Shown here: positions 1,453-3,610 of the stretch, piece after piece
How the letters are laid out: every line of letters starts with the position of its first letter
Position numbering within the stretch: the stretch's first letter is position 1
Assembly: GCA_029258725.1 (NCBI GenBank)
Contig: JAPDKE010000036.1
Location: 1 to 64,000, forward strand
Direction: 5' to 3'
DNA: 64,000 bases
DNA from: a bacterium
GTDB lineage: Bacteria > Hydrothermota > UBA3072 > JAPDKE01
Notes under the pieces: generated by a model
The model's database searches: none
The model's input: the letters and a program-made list of their open reading frames with translations, nothing else
Told to the model about the DNA's origin: nothing
Program-made: the position numbers and the translations under genes

Positions 1453-3369
1453 TCACCTCACCAGTATTATCTTTCCCGTTGCAGTTCTATCTCCAGCCTC
1501 AAGCCTGTAAAAGTATACTCCAGGTGCTTCAGCATCCCACCTTATCCTGTGCCTTCCTGCATTCATTACCCTGTTCAGAGGCTCAGCAATAAGCCTGCCA
1601 CTGATGTCGTATATCCTGAGATTAACCTTACATTCCTCAGGCAGAGAAACCTCTATAACAGCCCCATTGCCGGAAACGCCTCTCTCACTCCTCACATAAA
1701 ATCCGGAAGAAGTCCCTTTATTGCCCGAGAGTTGAGGTCCACCGGAAACATGAGTCTTCTTTATGCCACGATAAAGATATATACCGGAAACAGAGGCATA
1801 ATCACCGGTGAGCCTCCTGATGGTCAATCTCACTGCACTGTCATCCTCGTAATAAGGAGAAGGTATCTCTATTCTCAGCGTCTCGGGTATGCCTGCCTCC
1901 ACCTTCAATACCTTACCCTTCCTTCCATCCACCTTTACAAGTTCATTCCATCTTCCAGAACTCTCATGATACCCGACAACCACAAGAGTGTATGCATAAT
2001 CAGGGTCAAGATAGGGAAGTTCATATTCCAGGGTATTGTAGGCATAATCAACAGCAACACCGGAAGGATAGACTATGTAGCCATCCCGGTAAACCGTATA
2101 GGGAGAGGGCTCCTCACCACCAACAGAAACGGAATAGTATACAGGGGAGGGGACAACAAATGTGGATTCCACAACCTCATAGGGAGCATCATTTCCTCTC
2201 GTCCAGACAAGGGCAACATACCCATGGTCAGAATAATCAATCTGGGAATACCTGCTGTTCACAGGGTCGTCGGAATCCCAATAGATATCTCCTCCCAAAC
2301 TCACCAGTTTCACGTCCCAGTCTCCCGTTGCAGTATCCCTTTCACTCCAGGTCACATATTCTCCTGCTACCATCTGGGGCCAGTGGTTGTCCATGGAAAG
2401 GTCAAGACTACAAGGCCATTGAGGATAACCTTCCCAAACCCCACCAACAGGTCTCCTCTGCAAGTATATCTCCCCCAGTCCTGATACAGGGTTTGTCTCT
2501 CTCCATATTGCATATACAGCATCTCCCCAGAAGGAAATGAATGGCTCACCAGCAGACCATCCATGCAGATTGAGACGGTATGGAGTGGACCAGGTTCCAC
2601 TCTCCCTCGTCACATACCACACCGTATCGTTCTTCTCATAAACCACATGAGGATTTCCATTGTAGTCCACCGTAATAGAGGGAGAAAGAGGAACTACAGC
2701 ACTCCCAGTCCGAACCATACTGTCTATCACCTCAACATTGCCCACAGGGACCCAGTCCTCGTCATACTTCGCATAGTAAAGTTTCCAGGCATAATACCAC
2801 ACATCCCCTCTAACCCAGGAGACAACTTCCTCCCAGACAACATGATTGTAAACCCCATCATTCTCCACAGCAGGAGGAGAATACCCACCACCAGCAACCT
2901 CAGGAGCACTCACAACACCGGAATCAATCACACCCACAGACCAGGTGTAAGGATGAGGGTCAAGAAAAGAAGGACCACTCTTTCCACCGTAAAGCCACCA
3001 CTTCTCCCAGGAAGGAGGCCAGACTTCAGGACCCTCCTCCCTCTTCCATACCGCATACCACTCATACCAAGGCCAGGGAATAACCTGAGAAAGAGTTAGG
3101 GAGGAAAAAATAATTCTCACATCCAGCGCAGGATAACCCCCTGCATCTATTATTCCCGTATCCCATGTTCTACCATTGTCCTGAGAAACAGCCCAGCATG
3201 CGTTTCCATACCCGGTATACACAACTCCAAGGACATCAGAAACAGGCACAAAAAATCTCACCTTCCTCTGATTATTATACGCCGTTGCCTCAGGAGAATC
3301 ACTGGTTGACACAACTACCTCACCCACAAGGATAAGAGAAAGAAATATGAAAACAAAACATTTCCTCAT
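1453..3369 (-). CDS. Exported sialidase-like protein with type IX sorting domain
   Basis: 638 residues. I chose ATG 3369 (MRKCFVFIFLSLILVG, a clear signal peptide) rather than an in-frame ATG 18 nt upstream, because AAGGAGGTG sits 5 nt before it. An Asp-box (SQDNGRTWD) near residue 45 and many W/Y-rich strands suggest a sialidase-like or other beta-propeller. The last ~75 residues form a type-A Por/type IX sorting domain: VNLRIYDISGRL, then GVYFYRLEAGDRTATGKII, ending in VR. Known family behaviour is export by Sec, then passage over the outer membrane by T9SS with attachment or cleavage of this tail. It is first in a two-gene unit whose leader carries the element at 3374-3445. Substrate unknown. 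Confidence 0.85.
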   Translation of the reverse strand: MRKCFVFIFLSLILVGEVVVSTSDSPEATAYNNQRKVRFFVPVSDVLGVVYTGYGNACWAVSQDNGRTWDTGIIDAGGYPALDVRIIFSSLTLSQVIPWPWYEWYAVWKREEGPEVWPPSWEKWWLYGGKSGPSFLDPHPYTWSVGVIDSGVVSAPEVAGGGYSPPAVENDGVYNHVVWEEVVSWVRGDVWYYAWKLYYAKYDEDWVPVGNVEVIDSMVRTGSAVVPLSPSITVDYNGNPHVVYEKNDTVWYVTRESGTWSTPYRLNLHGWSAGEPFISFWGDAVYAIWRETNPVSGLGEIYLQRRPVGGVWEGYPQWPCSLDLSMDNHWPQMVAGEYVTWSERDTATGDWDVKLVSLGGDIYWDSDDPVNSRYSQIDYSDHGYVALVWTRGNDAPYEVVESTFVVPSPVYYSVSVGGEEPSPYTVYRDGYIVYPSGVAVDYAYNTLEYELPYLDPDYAYTLVVVGYHESSGRWNELVKVDGRKGKVLKVEAGIPETLRIEIPSPYYEDDSAVRLTIRRLTGDYASVSGIYLYRGIKKTHVSGGPQLSGNKGTSSGFYVRSERGVSGNGAVIEVSLPEECKVNLRIYDISGRLIAEPLNRVMNAGRHRIRWDAEAPGVYFYRLEAGDRTATGKIILVR

Positions 3370-3373
3370 TTTA

Positions 3374-3445
3374 CACCTCCTTTCCAAGGGTTGAAAAAGT
3401 TAAAAACAGAAAAAAATTTGTCCCTTTTCAAGGAGGTGCCCTTGG
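3374..3445 (-). promoter_or_regulatory. Leader RNA that can sequester the ribosome binding site
   Basis: In the minus-strand transcript four segments occur in the order A CCAAGGG (3445-3439), B CACCTCCTT (3438-3430), A' CCCTTGG (3390-3384), B' AAGGAGGTG (3382-3374). B' is the Shine-Dalgarno site of the gene starting at 3369. B is its exact 9-nt complement and A is the exact complement of A'. The two pairings interleave, so they form either a pseudoknot or two competing helices. A further partial match (TTGAAAAG with CTTTTTCAA) could extend the B/B' helix. This is what a translational switch or thermosensor would look like. No ligand or known riboswitch class is recognised. Confidence 0.5.
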
Positions 3446-3581
3446 ATAGTATGTTTCTCCATACCCCCCCCTTATCAGGGAGAAATCTTTTCCCTCCCTC
3501 TCCTTCTTACTTCCTTTCATCCCCCTGAGAGAGAGGAAGAGTGAGGGATGAAATCTCATCCCCCTTGAACCCATCAATAAA

Positions 3582-3610
3582 AATATAATAAAATTTAAAA
3601 ATCCTGTCAA
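3582..3610 (-). promoter_or_regulatory. Sigma-70-type promoter for exported-protein unit
   Basis: TTGACA (3610-3605), 17-nt spacer, TATATT (3587-3582) on the minus strand. The predicted start near 3575 gives a leader of about 205 nt before ATG 3369, unusually long for this window. The leader is purine-rich and contains the element at 3374-3445. No gene is seen in 3370-3631. Confidence 0.75.

Follow-up and report, generated by a model that had tools for sequence, protein, structure and literature searches.

Can the leader RNA in front of a gene for a putatively exported protein take up two states, one hiding the Shine-Dalgarno (SD) site and one exposing it, and what would decide between them? 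The question is raised by interleaved complementary segments on the minus strand of the window (the whole 64,000-nucleotide stretch of WOR-3 DNA analyzed here). The genome, that of an uncultured bacterium, most resembles candidate division WOR-3, its nearest named RNase PH relative being a WOR-3 MAG at 61%. The gene that would be regulated (1453..3369, minus strand) encodes a 638-amino-acid protein with a signal-peptide-like N-terminus, an Asp-box-like motif (SQDNGRTW) and a C-terminus that matches Por_Secre_tail weakly, under the curated cut-off. A search of genome_contigs and viral_contigs returned no relatives of this protein, and a PDB search no sequence relative; homologues encoded by other WOR-3 genomes for the most part begin to align at residue ~200 or match the tail only. 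Upstream of the gene is a sigma-70-type promoter, TTGACA-17-TATATT (3582..3610, minus strand), with 11 of 12 consensus matches, and TTGACA recurs at the equivalent place in the sister genes C9, C30 and C10. Given this promoter and a transcript start predicted near 3574, the leader of ~205 nt that had been proposed is reasonable.

The complementary segments lie exactly where they were first read (minus strand, 3445-3374), and the second half is the SD site. Segment A, CCAAGGG (3445-3439), is followed with a linker of 0 nt by segment B, the anti-SD CACCTCCTT (3438-3430; CACCUCCUU in the list of leader parts). Segment A', CCCTTGG (3390-3384), is separated by 1 nt from B', the SD site AAGGAGGTG (3382-3374; AAGGAGGUG in the same list), and the ATG at 3369 follows 4 nt past the SD. 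A and A' extend to 8 nt each, UCCAAGGG (3439..3446) and CCCUUGGA (3383..3390). Between them are the two arms of an inner stem, UUGAAAAGG (3423..3431) and CUUUUUCAA (3391..3399), and an AAGGG (3426-3422) that can pair with the CCCUU of extended A'. Read on the minus strand from 3446, the transcript is thus UCCAAGGG-CACCUCCUU-GAAAAGGGAC...CUUUUUCAA-CCCUUGGA-AAGGAGGUG-UAAA-AUG.

Two folds compete for these segments in the energy models. The OFF fold combines a helix of 9-10 bp between B and the SD with pairing of AAGGG to CCCUU; the best energy for the full leader is -86.2 kcal/mol. In the ON fold, the 8-bp A:A' helix, with extended A as its 5' arm and extended A' as its 3' arm, stacks on the 9-bp inner stem to give a hairpin of 17 bp in which the SD is free. 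This hairpin loops out exactly the anti-SD, as a bulge of seven bases (CACCUCC, within B). The best ON structure of the full leader has -84.7 kcal/mol, 1.5 kcal/mol from the OFF best, and in ensemble terms OFF is favored over ON by 2.6 kcal/mol at 37 C. The energy of the 66-nt stretch with its SD open is matched by only 0.6% of shuffles. Because the linkers are only 0 and 1 nt, A:A' and B:B' could hardly coexist. The mutually exclusive helices of the original prediction are thus supported by near-isoenergetic conformers, by an SD-free hairpin more stable than that of 99% of shuffles and by blocks shared with sister leaders. We conclude that, as modeled, the leader RNA can adopt two competing folds, one hiding and one exposing the SD, and that a translational switch is a plausible reading.

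The same genome holds sister genes with leaders of their own. Compared with the window protein, identity is 61% for the C9 protein (residues 1-398) and 50% for the C30 protein (residues 1-88); C10 carries the promoter and the initial portion of the leader a fourth time, truncated by the contig end. C9 and C30 share 99.2% identity with each other across the initial 264 bases of coding sequence, and their leaders are 94% identical. As a whole their leaders do not align with that of the window (a MAFFT alignment puts the anti-SD in the wrong place). All three, however, have the blocks AAGGG, CACCTCC, TTGAA, TTCAACC and the SD (AAAGGAGGTGT) in one order, a chain with P=0.003 when the window stretch is shuffled and the SD excluded, and the blocks kept are the ones that pair in the two folds. 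The SD and its upstream complement pair over 9-10 bp in the window and 8-10 bp in C9 and C30. Between the window and C9, five pairs of the inner stem are unchanged and four are changed on both sides and still paired (A-U/G-C, A-U/U-A, G-U/U-A and G-C/C-G). An ON helix can be drawn for C9 and C30 (CAGG-AAGGGU:ACCUUU-AA-CCUG), and their OFF fold is a long hairpin. Covariation had been called for in related leaders; the two-sided changes are found in the sister leaders of the same genome, but the leader was not found in outside relatives. By DNA, its only relatives are the genome's own copies, and this genome is the sole member of its family among those searched. The comparison therefore covers two independent leader types, both in one genome.

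Other traces of the family are scattered through the assembly. On four more contigs (C28, C34, C11 and C24; L054-L057) there are gene ends that share the final ~85-100 residues of the window protein at 82-86%; several are near contig ends, in keeping with a family of mosaic genes at which the assembly breaks. At L054:3675-4063 (G000:C28:26174-26562), the family promoter and codons 1-13 of the leader ORF run in frame straight into the C-terminal sorting domain, with the middle of the gene absent. Upstream of the C9 sister gene (L051:1559-1723) is a fragment that on inspection resembles the start of a REP-associated (Y1) transposase.

What might move the leader between its folds is suggested by the open reading frames that run through the anti-SD. 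In the window, a candidate leader ORF of 48 codons (3428..3574, minus strand) ends ...YYPRAPP*, reads the anti-SD in the same frame as in C9 and C30, and has its TGA at the anti-SD end, overlapping the last base of B. Its in-frame ATGs are at 3574, 3559 and 3520, the first coinciding with the predicted transcript start; the start site is uncertain, with no well-spaced SD, and translation may be leaderless. An alternative ORF, MEKHTIQGHLLEKGQIFFCF* (3400..3462, minus strand), passes through the anti-SD in a different frame. The C9 and C30 leader ORFs, MRLNYCRERFLSGRRGGLRKYFVFAGRVLTPPRLKFI and MRCKYCRERFLSGRRGVRKYFIFAGRVLTPPRLKFI (37 and 36 codons), have a well-placed ribosome binding site (AGGGGAG, about six A, ATG), and the sole indel between them within the ORF is 3 nt long, with a 1-nt indel just outside. 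In the C30 leader ORF (L052:338-448), the predicted fold has the start AUGAGGUGUAAGU competing for the anti-SD region, to which it is complementary.

The reading that we tentatively favor, and to which we give not quite an even chance, is a translational attenuator of a known general kind, acting in cis and governed by where the ribosome stands on the leader ORF. The ORF would be translated, ribosomes would pause on it, and some signal might be sensed. The leader would bring its own anti-SD, which in the OFF state would hold the SD, helped by AAGGG:CCCUU, and in the ON state would be looped out of the one hairpin made by UCCAAGGG:CCCUUGGA and the inner stem UUGAAAAGG:CUUUUUCAA, leaving the SD free. 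A ribosome still upstream on the leader ORF would mask A and lock the OFF state, and one reaching the anti-SD, or pausing there at the Pro-Pro codons and stop codon, would remove the anti-SD and open the SD.

Computed SD opening costs bear on this scheme. For C9 the cost is 10.7 kcal/mol without a ribosome and drops to 4.2 once one sits on the anti-SD. The free window leader has a cost of 4.3 kcal/mol at 37 C, which becomes 13.2 when a ribosome is placed just upstream and 5.8 when it is placed on the anti-SD; at 60 C the latter position gives 3.4 kcal/mol vs 4.5 for the free leader. Judged by these costs, the leader-ORF model is clean for C9 and only partial for the window, where at 37 C a ribosome on the anti-SD lowers the cost relative to the upstream ribosome (13.2 to 5.8 kcal/mol) and not relative to the free leader. 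Also against the attenuator are the lack of a convincing ribosome binding site for the window ORF, an ON state 16-19 kcal/mol over OFF in C9 and C30, and the restriction to two leader types of one genome, with the leader absent from the outside relatives searched.

The alternative that survives best is fortuitous complementarity in a long purine- and pyrimidine-rich leader, with nothing regulated. We give it well under an even chance but regard it as a serious rival to the attenuator, and the background of such pairings bears on it directly. Post-hoc dinucleotide shuffles of the 5' leader place the segments above chance: a 9-nt complement of the SD arises in 1.0% and a 7-nt one in 10%, and a 7-nt A:A' placed around B and B' so that the helices exclude one another arises in just 0.03% (0.7% when either order is allowed). 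The overall chance estimates (0.003-0.01, post-hoc) are modest. When upstream regions were swapped among 216 gene starts, sampled from stretches around sorting-domain genes, about 3.6 SD complements of at least 9 nt were expected and 5 were seen. Such complements are not rare in this genome, in part through anti-SD words contributed by divergent genes and through the inclusion of the sister and window leaders among the swapped regions; given their frequency in swaps, the anti-SD by itself is unconvincing. Ranked by SD opening cost among 217 gene starts, C9 is 4th, C30 9th and the window 104th. The cost in the window without a ribosome is 4.5 kcal/mol vs a genome median of 4.2, and 82% of shuffles hide the SD, relative to their own open state, at least as well. 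From this rank and these shuffles it follows that SD hiding in the window is unexceptional, a point in favor of chance pairing and against an attenuator.

Nor does the phylum at large help the attenuator: anti-SD words 25-55 nt before an SD number 17 across 147 phylum genomes vs 11 in the reversed control, hardly an enrichment, and thus there is no phylum-wide device. What fortuitous pairing accounts for poorly is that the sister leaders retain exactly the pairing blocks, with two-sided changes, that what the ON hairpin loops out is precisely the anti-SD, and that the exclusive A:A' arrangement is so infrequent in shuffles.

Similar words were encountered elsewhere. CACCTCC and GGAGGTG occur 31-90 nt apart at six places in the window's own genome, three of them the leaders of this family; another, C17:390, is directly before another gene start. 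There (L078:390-449; G000:C17:390-449), CCACCTCCT, a few nucleotides past the stop of the upstream gene, is a complement of the SD of the next gene (447-1250), whose opening cost of 14.8 kcal/mol is second of the 217; this is likely a case of translational coupling. In two species of one genus of the same phylum (L120:374-443 and L121; G084 and G085), TTGCACCTCCTTT and AAAGGAGGTGCAA flank a short loop, with 13 bp in L120, directly before the ATG of a gene for an exported peptide of 68-69 amino acids. A CRISPR-like array (L058:2700-3750; G000:C17:49700-50750) has a repeat with TTGTCATTCCTTTTCTGGAATTAGAGGTTTTTCAAC and, inside two spacers, a ribosome binding site and ATG (AAAAGGAGGTGTARCATGAGAATACG).

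Leaders can also switch by order of folding, as those of hok and of the levivirus maturation gene do. Here the ON fold would form first, fresh mRNA would be translated, and slow refolding to OFF would follow with no leader peptide involved. As the local transcript grows, all of the ON hairpin is available ahead of the SD, and it remains the most stable structure (-19.6 kcal/mol) up to the point where the SD has been made; OFF is then the better fold (-24.2 kcal/mol). The estimated barrier out of ON in the window is 16.7 kcal/mol at 37 C. That figure is an upper bound, however, and for C9 and C30 the corresponding estimate is just ~6 kcal/mol, with OFF states that are far more stable; the property is therefore not common to the sister leaders, and we consider a folding-order switch unlikely.

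A ligand-binding riboswitch or an H-type pseudoknot, with A:A' and B:B' formed simultaneously, is suggested by the segment order A-B-A'-B' and is very improbable. The linkers of an H-type pseudoknot must be long enough to cross both helices, and those of 0 and 1 nt here are too short for helices of 9 bp and 7 bp, which makes the pseudoknot of the original prediction unlikely; against a riboswitch, no Rfam family reaches threshold in the leader (at gathering cut-offs the sole match in the window is a tRNA, and the leaders give only sub-threshold noise). An RNA thermometer, whose melting would expose the SD, is hardly credible: the helix that contains the SD does have a long A/U-rich loop, but the SD is predicted to be <6% unpaired from 37 to 70 C and 23% at 80 C, and the computed ON-OFF gap grows from 2.05 kcal/mol at 25 C to 3.62 at 60 C, so that heat does not move the balance to ON and the proposed thermosensor is disfavored.

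If the attenuator is real, the locus would be a two-state translational leader controlling exported proteins of one small family, from a phylum without cultured members in which little is known of regulation, and its sister genes would be natural variants. If it is not, the locus is a warning that composition alone makes SD and anti-SD words common.

Attenuation by an upstream ORF is familiar from the ermC and cat leaders. Translational coupling and attenuation by upstream ORFs have been reviewed together with an RNA-unfolding model (PMC12548453). As in those systems, the SD of the downstream gene in the window would be masked by an upstream complement, located within a short ORF or at its end; unlike them, the window has a stable alternative hairpin that would free the SD without a ribosome.

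The end of the window ORF invites a closer comparison. One class of arrest peptides is marked by small upstream ORFs that end in Arg-Ala-Pro-Pro, and stalling occurs with the third and fourth codons of the motif in the P and A sites (PMC10951233, PMC10987492, PMC12992588). Like ApdA, ApdP and CruR of this type (PMC10951233, PMC10987492, PMC9426467, PMC12992588), the window ORF ends Arg-Ala-Pro-Pro-stop before a hidden SD, and by analogy a ribosome stalled on it would cover the anti-SD. Unlike them, its short peptide has no obvious export signal, and the C9 and C30 sister leaders read LTPPRLKFI, not RAPP. Among 457 small upstream ORFs at the 216 gene starts, the PRAPP* of the window is the only R[AG]PP near an end; AAGGG adjoining CACCTCC, however, yields RAPP in one of three frames regardless. 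Since the motif follows in this way and is missing from C9 and C30, we treat it as a lead. A reverse search for RAPP codons serving as an anti-SD, with a spacing range that excludes the window, gave 11 matches, 0 of them before a gene start. That AGG GCA CCU CCU (Arg-Ala-Pro-Pro) is itself the anti-SD, with arrest codons doubling as the SD-blocking strand for an exported sorting-domain protein of WOR-3, is in our view decidedly unlikely. If the leader is a real control element, CCU-CCU codons that serve both as a proline pair and as an anti-SD would make a simple design, worth seeking elsewhere.

A further parallel comes from Rhodobacter capsulatus, in its CutF-cutO leader (PMC9973294). CutF senses copper, carries a signal peptide and is exported, unlike the window peptide, which is short and in which no sensor domain was seen. 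In both leaders, an anti-SD stem-loop shields the SD of a gene for an exported protein, as computed here for the window, and the upstream ORF ends with a proline motif.
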